Positions 5,354-29,051 of a stretch of DNA of 33,372 nt are shown piece by piece. The DNA is taken from NCBI GenBank assembly GCA_028281405.1, contig JANQKA010000297.1, positions 1 to 33,372 of the forward strand, written 5' to 3'. Each line of letters begins with the position of its first letter. The stretch's first letter is position 1. The translations under genes were made by a program, and so were the position numbers. The DNA is from Hasllibacter sp. GTDB lineage: Bacteria > Pseudomonadota > Alphaproteobacteria > Rhodobacterales > Rhodobacteraceae. The notes under the pieces were generated by a model that worked only from the letters and a program-made list of their open reading frames with translations, did no database searches and was not told the DNA's origin.

Positions 5354-6520
5354 TCACAGGGCGGATTCGAGCGCGCCCGCGAGGTCCGCGCGTTCCCACG
5401 AAAACCCGCCGTCCGCGTCCGGCGAACGGCCGAAATGGCCATAGGCGGCGGTGCGCCGGTAGATCGGGCGGTTCAAACCAAGATGCTCGCGGATGCCTCG
5501 CGGCGAGAGATCCATCACCTTGCCGATCGCCTTCTCGATGGCCGCGCCGTCGACACGGCCCGTGCCGTGGGTGTCGCAGTAGACGGACAGCGGCTTGGAC
5601 ACGCCGATGGCGTAGGACAATTGGATGGTGCAGCGCCGCGCCAGGCCCGCCGAAACGACGTTCTTCGCGAGGTAGCGCGCCGCGTAGGCGGCGGACCGGT
5701 CCACCTTGGTCGGATCCTTGCCGGAGAAGGCGCCGCCGCCGTGGGGCGCCGCGCCGCCGTAGGTGTCCACGATGATTTTCCGGCCCGTCAGTCCCGCGTC
5801 GCCGTCCGGCCCGCCGATCACGAATTTGCCCGTGGGATTCACCCACCACTCGGTGTTTCCGGTCAGCCACCCGTCGGGCAATTCGCCGCGGATGTGTGGT
5901 TCCACGATGCCGCGCACGTCGCCGGAGGTCAGGGATTCGTCGAGATGCTGGGTGGACAGGACCACGGAGGTCACCTCGACGGGCTTGCCGTCGGCGTAGC
6001 GCACCGTCAGCTGCGACTTGGCGTCGGGACCGAGCTCCGGCCGCTCGCCCGATTTGCGGACCTCGGCGAGTTTCATGAGGATTCGGTGCGCGTAGTGGAT
6101 CGGCGCGGGCATCAGGTCCGCGGTCTCGTCGACGGCGTATCCGAACATGATGCCCTGGTCGCCCGCGCCCTCGTCCTTGGAACCGGAGGCGTCGACGCCG
6201 CCGGCGATGTCCCCGGACTGGTCGTGCAGGTAGTTGTGAACGTCCATCTTCTCCCAGTGGAAGCCGTCCTGCTCGTAGCCGATATCCCTCACGCACCCCC
6301 GGGCTATCTCCTCGACGCGCCGGGTCACGTCGCCGGGACCGCGCACCTCGCCGCCGATGACGACGCGGTTCGTCGTCGCGAACACCTCGCAGGCCACCCG
6401 GGCCTCCGGCTCCTCCGCCAGAAAGGCGTCCAGAACCGAGTCGGAAATCTGATCGCAGATCTTGTCCGGGTGTCCCTCGGACACGGATTCCGAGGTGAAG
6501 ATGTAGTCCTTGCGGGTCAT
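5354..6520 (-). CDS. metK: S-adenosylmethionine synthetase
   Basis: MetK makes S-adenosylmethionine from methionine and ATP. The 388-residue protein begins [20 protein letters not shown] and contains the two family signatures, [13 protein letters not shown] and [19 protein letters not shown]. An in-frame ATG five codons upstream (6535) exists. ATG at 6520 is preferred because GGAG sits 9 nt before it, and that GGAG is exactly the segment sequestered by the predicted SAM/SAH riboswitch immediately upstream. The gene lies between lnt and trmB, 90 nt downstream of the lnt stop. Expression is probably repressed when SAM is abundant. Confidence 0.96.
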
Positions 6521-6528
6521 TTGGATGC

Positions 6529-6570
6529 GCTCCATTCGGTGCCGCCGTCACGCCAGGAAGCCGTTGTGAC
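6529..6570 (-). promoter_or_regulatory. SAM/SAH riboswitch overlapping the metK ribosome-binding site
   Basis: On the minus strand GTCAC (6570-6566) can pair with GTGAC (6551-6547) to form a 5-bp stem. The loop AACGGCTTCCTGGC carries TTCC, which can pair with the metK Shine-Dalgarno GGAG (6533-6530) to make an H-type pseudoknot. From memory, the core GTCACAACGGCTTCC followed by TGGCGTGAC and a downstream GGAGC matches the SAM/SAH riboswitch family (Rfam RF01727) described upstream of metK in Rhodobacterales. Ligand binding would hide the ribosome-binding site and lower MetK synthesis. The sequence match is very strong. Function is inferred from the family. Confidence 0.9.
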
Positions 6571-6610
6571 AGCCGATCGCGGGGGGCGGTAAACCCGCCG
6601 CGCCACGGGG

Positions 6611-11283: not shown

Positions 11284-11510
11284 TCCACGCCGCGGGCCGA
11301 CGTGGCGGGAAATGGATTCCGTGGCCGAAACGCCGCCCCGGCGGAGGTTCCAATCCGCCCGCGGATTGGTGGATGAAGAATGGGATTCGTGGCGGATCGC
11401 GCCCCTCCAACCGTGCGGCGGCACATCCGGCTGAATTGAGTGTTGGAATCGGCACAATTTTATTTCAATTATTTTGGTTGCATAATTACGATTCGAAAGG
11501 CCGACGCGAC

Positions 11511-12595
11511 TCAATCCAGTTGCCAATTCTCCACATTCCAGTCGGGCCGTCCGTTGAACGAAAATCGCGCGGTTACGGCTCCGACACTATTTGGGTGCAT
11601 CCTGCCATGCATCCGATTTCCCCGCATATATTTTTCAATTTTTCGCTCGTGCTCAGATCGAACCAGGGATAATGGAAGCGACGTGAGAAATAAATTTTCC
11701 GTAAGGGAATCCAACCTTTCCAAGTCAGATTTTGTTGGGAGTTGGTTATTGCCACGTGACCATGGAGTTACGATGGCGTTGACATTTCGGCGCAATACAC
11801 GAGTCCATAATCCATCATGATGCGCATTTCGCGATCCATGATGCGGAACTTTGAAGTAGCTTACTTCTCCACAAGGACGATTGGGAGAATCCATGATGGA
11901 ATCCCAGCCCGAACGAGGGTCCGAGGTTCGCTCCAAATCCGATCCCAAAATCATATGAATTTCTCCAATTCTGATCCACATCGCAACCGAATGATGATTT
12001 GGACTCTGTGGGACAACGCCACGATCCTTAACTTCCTGATCAATAATAAGTGAGGCCAACCGGGATTCGCTTTCCATTATTTGGAAATCCGAAGGTGAAA
12101 GCGCCCAAATATCGCATGAATAGTGGTGAGCCAATTGGTCGGTGGTGAATTTAAGAATACGTTTGTCCTGACATCCGTAGCGAATTCTGCGCGTACCCGA
12201 TTTAAGTCTCCTGAATACTTCCAATATTCGTCAACGCCGGATCGCAGCCGTTCTAATTCGGTGAATGATCGCACGGTAAGGAACTTGAGGAATTCGCGTT
12301 TTGTGAACGCCCCCGAGACACATACAGCCGCATTTTCACATGTATCGATCAATTGGGACATTCCGCGAATATGATCATCGTGCCAATGCGTTACGACAAC
12401 CAAATCCGCATGACGCGAAATATCAACGCCAATTCTCTCGAAATATCGAAGGGCAACAGGCGAATCATTTGTTCTTGATACGCAAGAATCCACGATAACC
12501 CAATGCTGGCTTCCCAAGTGAACGACAATGCATTCGCCGTAACCCGGACCGAAAACAGACACTTCCAATTCGTGATCGTCAGGCTTCGTCTTCAT
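11511..12595 (-). pseudogene. MBL-fold hydrolase with apparent frameshift (protein C of the cassette)
   Basis: Two overlapping frames together encode one metallo-beta-lactamase-fold hydrolase of about 361 residues. The first frame, from ATG 12595, has FGPGYGECIVVHLG, a metal-binding motif THWHDDHIRG near residue 75, and runs to a stop at 12077. The second is open from 12230 down to 11511 and contributes ALSPSD, MILGSDLE and KVPHHGSRNAHHDGLW, the C-terminal metal-ligand half. Restoring one A at about 12227 (GAA TAT to GAA ATA) joins them as ...GVDEILEVFRRLKSG.... No slippery heptamer is seen there, so programmed frameshifting is unlikely. This is a real mutation or a sequencing error. The gene overlaps the upstream gene by 17 nt. 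Substrate unknown. Confidence 0.78.
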
Positions 12596-13280
12596 CGTCC
12601 CACTCAATGTCGTCGATTATTTTTTTGAGGTAAGCCAATCTCTCTTCGACTTCGGCGGGATCTAGAGGAGTGGGCTCTTTGAAAATCACATGAGAATAGT
12701 ACTCCTTTTTCCCATAATTAGTCCTTTCGCCCATCACAAGGCGGAATATTGCTCCTGGCACAATAAGTTCCCGATCCGATTCCGGGACGCGATCAATGGG
12801 AATAGTGATAAATTCCTCAAAGTTTGCGTCACTTCCTTTAATCAATACGATTCTACACTCGAATTCGTCGCCTGAAATCTCCTCGACCATACCTTCCCAC
12901 TCGGCGGTCTCATCTTCCGATGTGCGTTCATCCGGAAATGGAACGGTGGGATAAGTTGTGGTGGAATGGGTGAAACCAATTGGATAATATGCATTGAGGT
13001 TTCCCCAAGGCCAATTTTCTTCGATTATCCCGTACAAGACGGGAATTGGGGTGCGGTGACAATGGGTGGCCTCCAAGAATTTTTGCTCCGGATTTGCCTT
13101 GACCCAATCTTCAATATGGAATCCGAATGGATTGAGGTTCCGAGTTGATTCCAAATCGTGAACATCCCGAGCCTCACCGATCATTTGGTTTTCATTGGGG
13201 AGAACGGAAGCCGTCAAGGATGGCGGGAAGATGCTCGTTCCTCCCGGAGTTCTTCCGTATTCAAGATGTTGAGTGAACAT
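12579..13280 (-). CDS. Unknown protein B of AT-rich cassette
   Basis: This is a 233-residue acidic, probably cytoplasmic protein I do not recognise. There is no signal peptide or membrane helix. The N-terminal half is polar and aromatic-rich (EATHCHRTPIPVLYG, ENWPWGNLNAYYP). The C-terminal part from about residue 125 looks like a small beta-rich domain, with EWEGMVEEISGDEFECRIV and ELIVPGAIFRLVMGE, followed by a charged helix and an acidic tail (DIEWDDEDEA). It starts 2 nt after the stop of gene A (TGAAAATG) and its 3' end overlaps the start of the MBL-fold gene, so the three are almost certainly co-translated. Codon use is visibly AT-richer than in flanking genes, which suggests transfer. 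Confidence 0.8.
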   Translation of the reverse strand: MFTQHLEYGRTPGGTSIFPPSLTASVLPNENQMIGEARDVHDLESTRNLNPFGFHIEDWVKANPEQKFLEATHCHRTPIPVLYGIIEENWPWGNLNAYYPIGFTHSTTTYPTVPFPDERTSEDETAEWEGMVEEISGDEFECRIVLIKGSDANFEEFITIPIDRVPESDRELIVPGAIFRLVMGERTNYGKKEYYSHVIFKEPTPLDPAEVEERLAYLKKIIDDIEWDDEDEA

Positions 13281-13282
13281 TT

Positions 13283-13996
13283 TCAGACCGCCATTGCTCT
13301 AAAGTAGTCGATGATTTTATCTGCGCTCTGTAGAGCAGAGGAGTATTCGTTGCGTATGCCAAATATTGCGCGCCTTGCTCCAATTGTACTTTGTTCTCCC
13401 TGCAACCAAAAGTACCGATTCACGAGTATGAATACCGCGGTGCTTGGATTCAAATATTCCGAGTGCCCCACCCCTATTTCGGCGTACGTGGAATTATACA
13501 CTCCGGAAGAGAGATTGTTTGAAAAGAATTTTCGCGTCCAAACGGATGCGGTTTCCACGGGCAGATCTTGATAGTGAACATTGCTTCCTTGATATCCACC
13601 GCTCAAATCGTCCCACAGGTCGGTTGGCGCGATGCGCCGCATCATTTCGGTTTTCTTTCCCGGAGAGGTTGTCCGGAAGTTGGCAGATTTTCCAATAAAG
13701 AACCCATGAATGTTCGAATGGGGAAGGATTTCCGAAAATATCTTCGAGACAAAGTCGAGAATCAATTCCGCCGGTGCCGCCAGAGTGGAAACTTGGAATT
13801 GGTCGGGCGAAACTTGGACGTTCATTCCTCCCAAGGTCATGTTCACCGCCCCTGGGGAGGCCGGTCCATACGTCGGAGCGGCGGCGGCTTCTTTGGAGAT
13901 CACCGAATGGTGCTCAAGCCACGAAGGTTGAAAAATCATGGGTTGGAAGCCGCCGAACAGGGTGATCGACCAGTACGTATGATCCACGCCAACCAT
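13283..13996 (-). CDS. Unknown protein A of AT-rich cassette
   Basis: This is a 237-residue cytoplasmic protein I do not recognise. It opens MVGVDHTYWSITLFGGF, followed by FQPSWLEHHSVISKEAA. It has a central MNVQVSPDQFQVSTL beta segment and ends in a helical RNEYSSALQSADKIIDYF. No catalytic motif, signal peptide or membrane helix is evident. ATG at 13996 is chosen because AGGGG lies about 6 nt upstream; a GTG at 14044 would add 16 GC-rich, unpersuasive residues. It is the first gene of a tight operon with B and the MBL-fold hydrolase C. By analogy with other compact three-gene cassettes it may be a sensor or partner of C, but that is inference only. Confidence 0.78.
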   Translation of the reverse strand: MVGVDHTYWSITLFGGFQPMIFQPSWLEHHSVISKEAAAAPTYGPASPGAVNMTLGGMNVQVSPDQFQVSTLAAPAELILDFVSKIFSEILPHSNIHGFFIGKSANFRTTSPGKKTEMMRRIAPTDLWDDLSGGYQGSNVHYQDLPVETASVWTRKFFSNNLSSGVYNSTYAEIGVGHSEYLNPSTAVFILVNRYFWLQGEQSTIGARRAIFGIRNEYSSALQSADKIIDYFRAMAV

Positions 13997-14647
13997 TTCA
14001 GACCCCTGTCCCGGCTCGGTCTGGATGCGCGGCTTCACGCACACCGTGTGGTGGAGCGGAGGTCTGGCAAATGAGCAAAACCGACATCGAAGCGGACGGG
14101 TTGGAGGCGGTGTGTCGCGTGCATTCGACAGGAGTATTCCTCTCTGGACGCGCGTGCTTCGGCGCGGCCCCGGGGATCAAGTAGCCGCGTCCGTCCAAAT
14201 ATTCGTCCAAAAAGCGGTTCCCTCCGATTGGAGGCATTGGATGCCGATGAGATTCCGGAGCGGAGTCGTTGACCGACGCATCATGGTCCTTTGACCCCGC
14301 GTGCCGGAATCCGCCGAACCGATGCGGTTCCGACCGCGGATGAGCCATCGCGGAGCGCGCCGCGGTCAGGCGGCGGAATCCGAACCGTCCGCCGCCCACG
14401 CCGAAGTGAAGGCCGACCAAGGCCATGCGGGCATACTGTGGCAACATCGCTTCCTCATTCACGGTATGAGCCGCTCCCGCCGCCGATACCGGGAGGAACG
14501 CCTCTTGGAGCCCATATATCTCTCAAGCCGACAGGGAACAATAGCTGTTCGACCGATTTCTTCATGTTCCGCGCCCATATCAGAGCGGATCGGGGGCCCA
14601 CCGGGCGAGAACCCCGGCTTCGGCTGGAGAGGCGGGTTGGAAGGCGG
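13997..14647. other. Gene-free spacer between cassette and hydroxyquinol cluster
   Basis: No convincing gene lies in these 650 bases. Base composition returns from AT-rich to GC-rich here, so one boundary of the cassette falls at about 14000-14050. A 36-codon minus-strand frame near 14450-14565 (MKKSVEQLLFPVGLRDIW...) has little ribosome-binding signal and is not called. I found no matching direct repeats at the two cassette edges. Confidence 0.5.
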
Positions 14648-24998: not shown

Positions 24999-25837
24999 TG
25001 GGCCTTCCGGCGCCGGCGGCCACGGGTCGCGTGGTATTCGTCGAAGACGCCTTTCGCGCCCCGCACGGCGAATCCCTCCGGGCCGCGATCCCGGATGGGG
25101 CGGTCCGCGGAGAGCGGGAGGCCGCCGCCGGGTTCCCGGCGGGAATTCGCGCGGCGGCGAGCCGGGTGAATCGATCCGCTTCGTTTCCGCGCGATCGGCC
25201 CTCACCGCGCCCGCGCTTCCCGGACCGCGGCTCCGGTCCGGAGGGGTTGCGAATCGGCGGCGGATGTTGCCCGACCTAGACGATACGCGATCGCGGGAAT
25301 CCTCCGGGTCGTGAAATCAGCGTCGGTCGGGCCGCGGGAGCGGGAAGGTGGTGGAGGAGAGGCGCCCCGCATTCGACGCGGCGACCGTCCCGCGCCGTGG
25401 CGTGTCGGCTTCGCTCCGCGACGGGCGTGACCCGGCGGATCGGCTGTACCGGGACCGAGGGCGCTCAGGCACGGAATTCCGCGACGCCGATTGGATATTC
25501 CCCTATTCGCCGAAACGGATCGAGGCCGCCACGGTCGATGCGGCGGTTCCCGCGCGCATTCCAAAAGGCGGGACGCCCCGCCGGGGCCGGAGGCCTGCTT
25601 CCAGCGCCGCGGGACAATGCGACGCGGCGCGTTCCCGGCATCCGTGATTCCGAACCGCCGGTTTCCGCCGCGCGGCGGCGACTCCCCTATCCAGCGGCCA
25701 AATTGATCCACCGCAACATTCCCGTCGAATTTTCCTCCAGTCGCGCCGCGCCCGCGGAGAACCCGGGTGGGCGCGCGCGCCGTCCTCCCGGGTCCGGCAT
25801 TTACGGAAATTCCACCCGCTCCGCGCGACGCGTTCAT
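24999..25837. other. Gene-free spacer after TRAP operon
   Basis: About 840 GC-rich bases contain no supported gene. The stretch 25690-25840 vaguely resembles the tandem repeat to the right (CAAATTGATCC...GTCGAATTTTCC) and may be a decayed additional copy. Confidence 0.45.
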
Positions 25838-25848
25838 TCGCCAAAACG

Positions 25849-25879
25849 CGATTACCCGCTTACGAATCCTCCCCGTCAA
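25849..25879 (-). promoter_or_regulatory. Promoter-like element in repeat copy 1
   Basis: On the minus strand TTGACG (25879-25874) and TAATCG (25854-25849) are separated by 19 bases. It is weaker than the equivalents in copies 2-4 and lies at the same place in the repeat. Confidence 0.35.
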
Positions 25880-26075
25880 GCGTGTATGTTCGGATCGATT
25901 GCGCTTCCCTCCCGCGGCGGGATGGAACGGAATTCACCCGTGGCGAGAAGGTTTCGCGACGGGACGCGCCGCCGCCGGGCGGGAAGCGGCGGGTTCCGCG
26001 CTCAACTTTTCCCCGGCGCCCGTCCTTTCGGGACCGTCCACCGGTTTCCGCCCGAAGCGGTCTCCCGGCGCAAAT

Positions 26076-26105
26076 ATATTATCCGTCATTGAATCCATTG
26101 GTCAA
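26076..26105 (-). promoter_or_regulatory. Promoter-like element in repeat copy 2
   Basis: On the minus strand TTGACC (26105-26100) is followed after 18 bases by TAATAT (26081-26076), a near-consensus sigma70 pair. A transcript would run leftward through the spacer into copy 1. Confidence 0.55.
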
Positions 26106-26299
26106 GTGTTTTCGCATATGCCGAACGCGTTTCCCCTCCCTTGACGGACGCGAGCCGAATTATCCGCGGCGAAAAGGCATCGCGTTTGGAGGCGCCGCCC
26201 TGATCGCGGATGGCCGCGGCCGCCGCGCGCCGTTCCTCCGGCGTCCCTCTTTCCGGGGACTTTCACCCGATTGCGCTGGAATTGGCCCTTCGGGGAATA

Positions 26300-26329
26300 A
26301 GATTAACCGCTTACGAATCACTTTGTCAA
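26300..26329 (-). promoter_or_regulatory. Promoter-like element in repeat copy 3
   Basis: On the minus strand a perfect TTGACA (26329-26324) is followed after 18 bases by TAATCT (26305-26300). Position and spacing match copies 2 and 4. Confidence 0.55.
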
Positions 26330-26526
26330 GCGCTTTGGGTCAAGTCGAACGCGTTTCCTCCCTTGACCGGGGAGGTTGAATTTATCCGTGGCTGGAGGTT
26401 TGGCATCGTGGGATGCGCCTCCTTGGGAAGGATGGTCCGCGGACGCCGCGCGCGCCTTTCCCACGGAGTCGGAGATTGCGGAATCTTTCCGTTTTCTTCC
26501 GGGCGAAGACGCCCTTCGCCAAAATG

Positions 26527-26556
26527 TATTTACTTGCCATTGATCCTTCCGGTCAA
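26527..26556 (-). promoter_or_regulatory. Promoter-like element in repeat copy 4
   Basis: On the minus strand TTGACC (26556-26551) is followed after 18 bases by TAAATA (26532-26527). Just downstream the transcript would contain a small perfect hairpin, GGGCG-TCTT-CGCCC (about 26513-26500). Confidence 0.55.
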
Positions 26557-26640
26557 GAGATTTCATTCAAGTCGAATCGTTTCTCCGTCCTTTACGGGGT
26601 GCGATTCGAAAATATCCGTGGCGAGGAAGTTTCGCGTCGG

Positions 26641-27197
26641 CGTGCGGCATGGTGGACGGCGGAGAGTGGGAGGATGCCGCGCTCCGGTTCCAAAGGAAGT
26701 TCCGGTCCCGCGTACACTGGACCAAACCTTCGACGGATGGCAAATTTCGGGTGTCCGCGCCCATGTTGACCGTTGGACCGACCCGCGTGTTTCGTTCCGC
26801 CTCCGCGTTTCGCGGGCGACGGGGGCCGAGGCGGCGGACCGGCGTCCGTTGACGAAAAGATGAACGGCCGGTGAAAGGGCGCGGCTTGAAATCAATACCC
26901 GTTTTGCTTAATTGGCGGGGACGGGCCACTTGAAATTTCCGGGAGCCGGATGAAGTCGAAGGTCAAGGACATGCACGAATTCGAAGCCGCGGTCCATCGC
27001 GGCCCGGAGCGCGCCGGCGCTCCAATTTCCGTTCGTGGGCGCGGGCCGCCCGGCGCGGGAACCGGCCAGCACTATTGACGAAAAACGTTCGCGCCGCGTC
27101 GCCGCGGCGCGCGACAGCAGCCTGTGTAGAGTAATCGGTGCGGTCGGTGACCTCATTGATATTTCCGAAATTCGGACAAGATCGAGAGGTCAAGAGC
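26641..27197. other. Leader region of the alpha-CTD/sigma-like gene
   Basis: These 557 bases separate the repeat array from the gene at 27198. A 42-codon plus-strand frame at 26950-27078 (MKSKVKDMHEFEAAVHRG...) has GGGAG upstream but ends in low-complexity sequence, and I cannot support it as a gene. TTGACG lies at about 27075 without a matching -10 box. Confidence 0.4.
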
Positions 27198-29051
27198 ATG
27201 TCCAAGTCCAAAACCGCGGCGACCGGCCGCCCCAAAATCGCCGGCGGCGCTCCCGTCCCCGACTGGATCCAGGATCCCGGGGATCCGCTGGGGATCGCCC
27301 GTGGCGCTCCGGCGTGGTTCCGGAATCACGAAGTCGGAAAATTGCCGTTGACGGTGCGGCTGCGGAACGTGTTCACGAACAATCAAATTAACGTGGTTTC
27401 CGACCTCGACCGCTATTCCGACGAGGATTTCTCCGCCCTGAAGAACATCGGGGTGACATCCAGAAGGCATCTCGCCGAGGCCCTTCTCGAAAGCCTTCAG
27501 GCCGGATTGGAGGCCAGGGGAGGGGCCCCGGACCTTGTTTCCGGCGGCGGAGCGAAGGACGGAACACGCGGTGGCCGCAAGGAAACCAACAACCTGTCCG
27601 GGGCGGTCTCGCGCGGATTGATGGGCAATCTTCTTGGCGCGCTCGACAAGGTCGGGGAACGCGAACGCGAAATCGTGTTGAGCCGGATGGGATACGGGGA
27701 GACGTCGAAAACGCTCGGCGGCCTCGGAGTGGAATATGGCGTGACGCGCGAGCGCATCCGTCAAATCGAACAGCGGGTGATCGACCCGATCAGGCTTGGC
27801 GAAGCCTGCGGCGACCTGATGCGGAGCCGGTTGAACACCGTACTGAGGAAACGCGACACGCCGTTGCCCCTGTCGGATCTGGAGCGGGCGGACGACTGGT
27901 TCCGCGGTGTTTCGGAGCATCCCGACATGGCCGAGTATCTGGTCGAAAAATTGTGCCCGAAAGCATTCAATGTGATTTCGGTCGCGGATGTCAAGTACAT
28001 TTCGCGCCTCGATCAGAACATCTGGGACGAAACGGTCAGGGACGGGAGGAATCTGCTGAGGAATTCCGTCGGCCTGATACTTCCCGAGGACGAGTGCCGC
28101 AGGCAGGTGGCGTCTCTCCTGCCGGCGACGGCCCGTGAATTGGAGCCCCTGCTTTGGACCGAGGCTTCGCGGTACTGTCACTTCTCCGGATTGAGGAACC
28201 CGCGTGTTCTCACCTCCTACGGGCGGGGAAGGGAGCATCTGGTCCGGGTGATCCTGGAGGACAGTCCGGAGCCCGTTCACGCCCGCGAGGTGTCCCGCAA
28301 GCTCGCCGAAACATTGGGGAGGGAATTCGGTTTTTCGCGGGTTCAGGCCGCGCTCTCCGCATCCGGAGTGCTGCTCGGCAAGGGAACCTTCGGAACCCGG
28401 GAGCACATCCCCCTTTCGGACGCGGCGTTGAAGAAGGCCGCGGAGATCGCCTCCAAAGCCGTGAACAAGCGTGGCGCGCGCGGGCGCCAGTGGCATGCGC
28501 AGGAGTTGCTGCGGGAAATTCGCGGGAAGGATCCCGGGCTCCACGATAAGTTTGACAAGTATCGGCTGAACGCGGCGCTCCGGTGGCATTCCGACTTGAA
28601 GTATCTCGGACGGTTCATGTGGACGGGTCCGGAGGGGAATGGCTCCCGTGTCCACATCAAGGAGGCGCTGAGAGAGATTTTGCGGGATGCGGGGGAGCCG
28701 CTCGCCACCTCCGAGTTAAAGAGTCGGGTGGCCGAACTCAGGGGCATGGGCAAGACCTTTCAGATCGGCAACCGCGATCCCGTCCTGAGGGTGGGCCGCG
28801 GGATGTGGGGCCTGAACGACCGCGACTTCGCGGTGAAGAGGGACCGGCAACCCGAATTGGTCGAGGCGGTGATCGACGCTCTCCGCCGGAAAGAATCCGG
28901 GATCGCCGTGGAGGAGGCGGACCGGTACATCGATTTCTCGCCGCGGATGAACGGGGACTCGATCTTCAGCATCGCCACCACGGACGACCGTCTGACGACC
29001 GGGATCGGACGCGTGCTCTTCCTGAGGGAGTGGGGAGGCCCCCGAATATAA
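27198..29051 (+). CDS. RNA polymerase alpha-CTD-like / sigma region 4-like multi-domain DNA-binding protein
   Basis: This 617-residue protein combines transcription-machinery domains. Residues about 49-100 (LPLTVRLRNVF...DFSALKNIGVTSRRHLAEAL) match the helix-hairpin-helix C-terminal domain of RNA polymerase alpha. Residues about 148-198 (LDKVGEREREIVLSRMGYG...YGVTRERIRQIEQRV) match sigma70 region 4, the -35-binding helix-turn-helix. The C-terminal half looks like several winged-helix modules (about 344-408, 411-478, 485-545 and 550-613). The third (HIKEALREILRDAGEPLATSELKSRV is its core) resembles HARE-HTH domains. There is no sigma region 2, so it is not a full sigma factor. ATG 27198 has GAGAGGT 7 nt upstream; an ATG at 27138 is less likely. 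It may bind promoters or act as a regulator. It stands alone in its orientation. Confidence 0.82.
   Translation: MSKSKTAATGRPKIAGGAPVPDWIQDPGDPLGIARGAPAWFRNHEVGKLPLTVRLRNVFTNNQINVVSDLDRYSDEDFSALKNIGVTSRRHLAEALLESLQAGLEARGGAPDLVSGGGAKDGTRGGRKETNNLSGAVSRGLMGNLLGALDKVGEREREIVLSRMGYGETSKTLGGLGVEYGVTRERIRQIEQRVIDPIRLGEACGDLMRSRLNTVLRKRDTPLPLSDLERADDWFRGVSEHPDMAEYLVEKLCPKAFNVISVADVKYISRLDQNIWDETVRDGRNLLRNSVGLILPEDECRRQVASLLPATARELEPLLWTEASRYCHFSGLRNPRVLTSYGRGREHLVRVILEDSPEPVHAREVSRKLAETLGREFGFSRVQAALSASGVLLGKGTFGTREHIPLSDAALKKAAEIASKAVNKRGARGRQWHAQELLREIRGKDPGLHDKFDKYRLNAALRWHSDLKYLGRFMWTGPEGNGSRVHIKEALREILRDAGEPLATSELKSRVAELRGMGKTFQIGNRDPVLRVGRGMWGLNDRDFAVKRDRQPELVEAVIDALRRKESGIAVEEADRYIDFSPRMNGDSIFSIATTDDRLTTGIGRVLFLREWGGPRI

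Follow-up and report, generated by a model that had tools for sequence, protein, structure and literature searches.

PbeABCD was shown experimentally to block a virus in a manner that depends on DNA modification, and it stops the replication of viral DNA without visible cleavage (Xiong 2019, PMC6459918). A later paper recasts PbeABCD as a CxC ABC-ATPase/DndE system in which methylation possibly replaces phosphorothioation (Kaur 2024, PMC10853773). Winged-helix arrays appear as DNA-reading parts of PT and BREX systems (PMC10853773; PMC12839542). As described, PbeABCD consists of four genes and a modification module. The main-text passages of PMC6459918 and PMC10853773 describe no fifth gene that combines the C-terminal domain of the RNA polymerase alpha subunit (alpha-CTD), sigma region 4 (sigma4) and winged helices (wHTH), and the passages of PMC10853773 mention sigma only for an HTH of the sigma type that some DndH proteins carry as an insertion.

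In this article, we analyze a gene for a protein of this composition, located in a stretch of 33,372 nucleotides (hereafter the window) from the alphaproteobacterium Hasllibacter sp. (contig JANQKA010000297.1 of assembly GCA_028281405.1), and compare it with its homologues. Judged from sequence comparison and gene order, the family to which it belongs is a recurrent, lineage-limited fifth component of alphaproteobacterial PbeABCD defence, occurring with methylation or with phosphorothioation. The architecture itself is reportedly not new: Aravind and Iyer are said to have mentioned in 2012 (Cell Cycle 11:119) bacterial proteins that combine features of the RNA polymerase alpha subunit and of sigma factors with HARE-HTH, which would be the same architecture. 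The preliminary description of this locus therefore probably went too far in treating the architecture as unknown; its statement that no function is established for it is still true. The Pbe system is known and the architecture has reportedly been mentioned before, and it is the link between the two that is absent from the passages of PMC6459918 and PMC10853773.

Domain composition of the window protein

The gene starts with ATG and its 617 codons encode the product referred to here as P0001 (Table 1); a GTG at position 27138 is a possible alternative start, which would extend the reading frame to 637 codons. The open reading frame behaves as a coding sequence, with GC content of 0.64/0.47/0.79 at the three codon positions (GC1/2/3) and with third-position GC staying at 0.76-0.84 across all three thirds of the gene. 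Its neighbours are of housekeeping type, i.e., TRAP transporter genes, a GMC oxidoreductase, tyrosyl-tRNA synthetase and YbeY. Profile and family comparisons identify in P0001 an alpha-CTD, then sigma region 4 and then winged helices in tandem, and no enzymatic domain is detectable in it.

Table 1. Coordinates of the fusion gene, its predicted domains and the upstream repeats in the window
Feature	Position	Strand	Evidence
Fusion gene, 617 aa (P0001), orphan family member	27198..29051	+	ORF, 36-51% homology, GC3, retained columns
Alpha-CTD-like domain, residues 44-96	27327..27485	+	Pfam PF03118 2.2e-7; E. coli RpoA-CTD and family alignments
Sigma70 region 4-like domain, residues 148-199	27639..27794	+	Pfam PF04545 4.8e-8; fold match Z 9.6
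Putative winged-helix-like module 1, residues 225-269	27870..28004	+	AlphaFold secondary structure only
Putative winged-helix-like module 2, residues 297-341	28086..28220	+	AlphaFold secondary structure only
Winged helix 3, residues 343-402	28224..28403	+	Z 8.2 to 2mh2, rmsd 1.6, 56 residues
Winged helix 4, residues 405-480	28410..28637	+	Z 7.8 to cullin WHB 1ldd, rmsd 2.3, 69 residues
HARE-HTH-like winged helix 5, residues 486-540	28653..28817	+	Sub-cut-off Pfam matches; AlphaFold secondary structure
Winged helix 6, probable, residues 548-610	28839..29027	+	Z 7.1 to 5fyw_X; alignment
Upstream array of four degenerate tandem repeats of ~226 bp	25826..26735		Repeat search, alignment, autocorrelation lag 226

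The preliminary description had proposed a fusion of alpha-CTD-like and sigma region 4-like domains that lacks sigma region 2, and both parts of this proposal are borne out. The RNA_pol_A_CTD and Sigma70_r4 matches of P0001 (Table 1) both exceed the curated Pfam cut-offs, and a profile of the family compared with PDB sequences finds the sigma4 of SigA at 1.5e-14 and an RpoA CTD at 1.9e-9, values well removed from chance. Pfam gave no match to Sigma70_r2 up to E 10 and none to the alpha N-terminal domain, which mediates dimerisation and assembly. In the AlphaFold model of P0001 (mean pLDDT 72), the sigma4 fold is recovered (6onu_F, Z 9.6, 65 aa, rmsd 2.5). The alpha-CTD has a pLDDT of about 50-68 in this model and 30-44 in the model of a homologue, and no alpha-CTD chain or full-length match is found among the fold-search matches listed, which excludes nothing because the model is weak in this part. 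The structural check suggested earlier succeeded for sigma4 and gave no alpha-CTD among the matches listed; since the latter domain is modelled poorly, its assignment relies on sequence profiles and conserved residues and not on the model.

The conserved residues are those that contact promoters. R54, N57, N83, G85 and S88 of P0001, the counterparts of R265, N268, N294, G296 and S299 in the E. coli alpha-CTD, are invariant in the alignment of the type A family (defined below), and the residues of the 265 determinant are near-complete in type B members; K298 is not kept in P0001. The patterns VRxxN and NxGxxS/T are both present in all ten type A and B members examined. In sigma4, residues R184, E185, R186, R188 and Q189 lie in the -35 helix and correspond to R584, E585, R586, R588 and Q589 of E. 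coli sigma70; 13 of 13 family members carry the complete helix motif RERIRQ[I/V]E. P0001 thus contains a region 4 with its -35 recognition helix, and the conservation of promoter-contact residues implies strong constraint on the residues that would read promoter DNA. The complete conservation of the -35- and UP-element-reading residues fits the earlier suggestion that the protein could occupy promoters. The alpha-CTD surface that includes D259 and E261 (the 261 determinant) contacts sigma. These two residues are not conserved in the type A alignment, which makes two other suggested activities, recruiting or redirecting polymerase, less likely.

The remainder of P0001 is a winged-helix array. 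Secondary structure in the AlphaFold model suggests up to six wHTH-like modules, so the array reported earlier is retained and its count of about four is revised; the fold match of the last of them spans residues 550-610. The HARE-HTH-like character of one module, also reported earlier, survives as a likeness that falls short of a Pfam assignment: winged helix 5 matches WH_Rok at 0.0044 and HARE-HTH at 0.14, both under the cut-off, and the HARE-HTH (PF05066) score is 13 bits compared to a cut-off of 25.9. The corresponding match in the homologue L030 reaches 21.9 bits (2.3e-4), which is likewise below the cut-off, and lies on an earlier module. In the alignment, the homologues have one further wHTH after winged helix 6 that is missing from P0001.

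Among known defence proteins, the best-scoring family for the sigma4 of P0001 is MzaA (NCBIfam NF041931, PADLOC PDLC02203), a large sigma4-containing protein of the MZA anti-phage system. The match covers only ~55-90 residues of sigma4 and scores 35.8 bits against a cut-off of 800, and we rejected membership of P0001 in this family because the likeness is limited to sigma4. Winged-helix arrays are shared with the DndG/SspB/FokI multi-wHTH proteins and with PglW, which has an alpha-CTD-like domain and wHTH, a likeness drawn from their descriptions; unlike the fusion, these proteins are not described as having sigma4. With sigma70 factors and RpoA the homology is at the level of the domains, i.e., region 4 and alpha-CTD, but P0001 has no region 2, region 3 or alpha N-terminal domain and is not an RNA polymerase subunit.

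Homologues and their PbeABCD neighbours

Six close homologues, 36-51% identical to the window protein and representing four independent lineages, make up type A together with P0001, whose membership is indicated by homology across alpha-CTD, sigma4 and the wHTH array (51% identity over 598 residues with L033, 36-37% with L030 and L032). Two of these full-length homologues come from genomes of the host's family, and the others from a Jiella scaffold, from Salipiger bermudensis, from a related MAG and from an Aurantiacibacter atlanticus plasmid. The fusion family is rare: a sample of 394 genomes from the host's family contained it in 3, and a phylum-level sample in 1 of 398, that one being the window genome. 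P0001 alone as a query matched nothing in the genome collection, where the alignment-based scan succeeded, and it had no match among phage records.

At all six homologous loci, the fusion gene closes a tight operon in the order PbeA, small protein (SP), PbeC, PbeD, fusion, and the PbeD and fusion genes overlap or abut. PADLOC labels PbeA (1.6e-216) and PbeC (7.4e-303) among the partners, and the Pfam labels include Sp-DndD and N6_N4_Mtase. By kind, the partners are a PLD nuclease-helicase (PbeA), a PbeB-like small protein, a CxC ABC-ATPase (PbeC) and PbeD/DndE. An adenine-type methyltransferase (MTase) of the N6/N4 group precedes the operon, or, at two loci, lies just downstream on the opposite strand. 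The fusion homologues are therefore encoded inside operons of the PbeABCD kind, to whose four described genes type A adds a fifth. A PbeC of the same close clade (53-100% identity) occurs, among the 394 family genomes, only in the two fusion carriers other than the window genome. Residues 1-103 of the L032 fusion (L032 9995-10303) resemble class III nucleotide cyclases, with Z of 8-9 to several of them, and this cyclase-like N-terminal domain spans only about 100 residues. The copy on the Aurantiacibacter plasmid (L025 14461-17981) is split by an IS3 element, and tyrosine integrases flank both sides of the defence operon there.

Two further types extend the family. Type B, found on Pontibrevibacter and Ruegeria THAF33 plasmids and at loci L039, L040, L082 and L093, consists of proteins of 950-1026 aa in which wHTH-like modules accompany alpha-CTD-like and sigma4 segments; the gene directly precedes PbeA-SP-PbeC-PbeD, and dnd modification genes are close by in most loci. 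Type C (Rhizobium NXC14 and WSM1689, Acidisphaera L097) has its gene in the same position, followed in NXC14 by dndD/E and cysteine desulfurase. An hhalign comparison of types A and B aligned 476 columns that span alpha-CTD, sigma4 and winged helices (probability 99.3, E 1.8e-20), and a profile comparison of types A and C aligned alpha-CTD and sigma4 (E 2.7e-13). Pbe genes stand alongside the fusion in 15 of 15 loci (six of type A, six of B and three of C). Genomic context, which the preliminary description did not include, thus places the homologues in PbeABCD-type operons coupled to an MTase or to phosphorothioation, and this favours DNA recognition or a regulatory task within a defence system over a free-standing transcription factor.

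The reverse does not hold. Among 28 PbeA-bearing plasmid records, only a few, all of them alphaproteobacterial, were also recovered in the fusion searches, and no fusion gene was found at the inspected Pbe loci of Lactiplantibacillus, Halobaculum, Pseudanabaena, Rhizobium indigoferae and Sphingomonadaceae, which include archaeal, cyanobacterial and alphaproteobacterial ones. Since most PbeABCD systems do without it, the fusion is not essential to PbeABCD. The window genome itself has an operon of PbeA, PbeC and PbeD-DndE with PAPS reductase and an ATPase on contig C255 (L110, 2452-12808), with no fusion. Its first gene was read as DUF4007, and the order DUF4007-ATPase-PAPS reductase-PbeA-PbeC-PbeD/DndE is that of a Sphingomonadaceae bacterium plasmid, the gene set being that of a Rhizobium indigoferae plasmid.

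Related domain combinations occur away from these loci. An Acidiphilium plasmid (L207 5474-8098) encodes a sigma4-like protein of ~874 aa that is kin to the C-terminal part of the Rhizobium type; it has no Pbe genes near and toxin-antitoxin genes around it, making it another possible orphan, and two further Acidiphilium plasmids carry a protein of this type. The mixing of alpha-CTD and sigma4 is wider than Alphaproteobacteria: several alpha-CTD copies and sigma4 are split over two frames in a Clostridia MAG (L090 9109-11400), and alpha-CTD copies and sigma4 are encoded by two adjacent genes on a viral contig (L180 7854-9670), whose alpha-CTD/sigma4 protein had no match among phage records.

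The window copy and its surroundings

At the window locus, PbeA, PbeB, PbeC and PbeD are all absent. Searches of the window by tblastn with the partner proteins (MTase, PbeA, SP, PbeC and PbeD) gave chance matches only and revealed no remnants of a PbeABCD operon around the gene, and the window genome contains no close-clade PbeC, its sole PbeC-like gene being that of the separate C255 operon. The N-terminal region of ~190 aa with the cyclase-like domain is absent both from P0001 and from the DNA upstream. Comparison with the homologues identifies the window copy as a stand-alone orphan shortened at both ends, with the N-terminal region and the last winged helix gone. P0001 keeps 129 of the 162 columns (80%) that are invariant in three other lineages, and its divergence is slightly faster than that of the Salipiger protein (36% compared to 41% identity to L030). 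As the partners are missing, a role in defence would extend to the window copy by analogy with its operonic relatives only.

The repeats upstream of the gene are found nowhere else in the genome. Within them, GTCAAG is the longest stretch that does not vary; it reads CTTGAC on the minus strand, with an xTAAT-like box 16-17 nt further on, so that four promoter-like elements directed leftward precede a gene for a putative promoter-reading protein. A role of the TTGAC repeats as a shared autoregulation signal was rejected, because they are present in the window and absent upstream of the homologous operons. Rfam offered nothing credible for the repeats as a known RNA, the RNAalifold covariation term is unfavourable (+1.69), and the upstream region had no match among plasmid records.

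Two other features of the window were recorded. A SAM/SAH riboswitch (Rfam RF01727, 51 bits) lies at 6528-6575 on the minus strand at the start of the S-adenosylmethionine synthetase gene (5354-6535, minus strand). An island of low GC content at 11400-14050 (0.47-0.55 compared to 0.65-0.70) contains an ORF of metallo-beta-lactamase fold that is apparently split over overlapping frames (12077-12607 and 11511-12224, minus strand) and two ORFs (12579-13280 and 13283-14044) without a Pfam match; it is possibly a mobile or conflict module.

Possible roles of the fusion proteins

Our preferred reading, held tentatively, is that the operonic fusion acts as a non-enzymatic DNA-recognition subunit docking at promoter-like DNA, from which the window copy derives as a protein that stands alone. 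The fusion stays with PbeABCD under either modification, which makes service to the Pbe machinery or to its expression, and not the reading of one chemistry, the most likely task; the conservation of promoter-reading residues suggests that it docks on UP/-35-like DNA. In such a subunit, alpha-CTD and sigma4 would read double-stranded DNA resembling the UP element and the -35 box, the winged helices would widen the footprint and possibly sense in what state the DNA is, and the N-terminal domain of the operonic fusions would provide the link to the PbeA/C/D machinery, which the fusion would direct or license at promoter-like sites on incoming DNA. Having no region 2, no alpha N-terminal domain and no conserved 261 determinant, it would do so without acting as a sigma factor. 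The shortened window protein on its own could be a DNA-binding regulator or occluder, or a lingering recent orphan. Against this reading, most PbeABCD systems lack the fusion, the window copy has no Pbe partners, and the alpha-CTD and sigma4 folds can be generic DNA-binding modules with altered specificity. The full scenario of promoter-based recognition of incoming DNA, in which a captured reader derived from RNA polymerase aims a modification-dependent exclusion machine at UP/-35 sequences and orphans are freed as regulators, strikes us as rather unlikely.

The fusion could instead regulate its operon, binding the promoter from which its own defence operon is expressed (or promoters of prophage or host genes) to repress or activate it in the manner of a large controller protein, with the orphan as a stand-alone regulator. 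Every recognisable domain of the fusion is of the DNA-binding, promoter type, types B and C encode it first, directly before PbeA, and the window gene has four repeats with CTTGAC boxes upstream. However, the type A gene is last and overlaps or abuts PbeD, which fits a complex subunit better; the homologous operons have no shared TTGAC repeats upstream; the proteins, at 617-1026 aa, are far bigger than usual controllers; and the window repeats lie 0.5-1.4 kb from the start codon with their promoter-like boxes facing away from the gene. We consider such a regulator somewhat unlikely. For the window copy alone, one may ask whether it is the inactive leftover of a lost defence island whose frame is still open, as the missing partner genes, the missing close-clade PbeC, the loss of both terminal domains and the slightly faster divergence relative to the Salipiger protein would suggest. 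The intact frame of 617 codons with GC3 of coding type, the retention of 80% of the family-invariant columns and the preservation of all DNA-contact residues speak against decay, and make this explanation unlikely. The degrees of confidence expressed here overlap, as some concern the whole family and the one for a leftover concerns the orphan only.

Direct interference, in which the fusion covers or decoys the UP/-35 elements of phage promoters so that polymerase cannot fire and the Pbe operon is a mere neighbour, draws on the same invariant promoter-reading residues and on the presence of both promoter-contacting domains without region 2; yet it does not account for the strict association with PbeABCD at 15 of 15 loci across the three types, no observation supports a preference for phage promoters, and we regard it as quite improbable. 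A genuine alternative sigma factor, or an anti-sigma factor, binding core polymerase is highly improbable: the fusion has the sigma4 fold, which in sigma factors contacts the beta flap, and the annotation of relatives implies transcription initiation, but without regions 2 and 3 it would have no docking on the core and no melting of the -10 element, the alpha N-terminal domain is missing, and the 261 determinant of the alpha-CTD is not conserved. For P0001, a true sigma factor was rejected on the lack of region 2.

The retention of a component made of promoter-reading domains with either methylation or phosphorothioation suggests service to the Pbe machinery and not to one modification chemistry. 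Such a conserved component provides a concrete, testable handle on how PbeABCD chooses its targets, and the orphan in the window offers a predicted minimal DNA-binding core for biochemistry.
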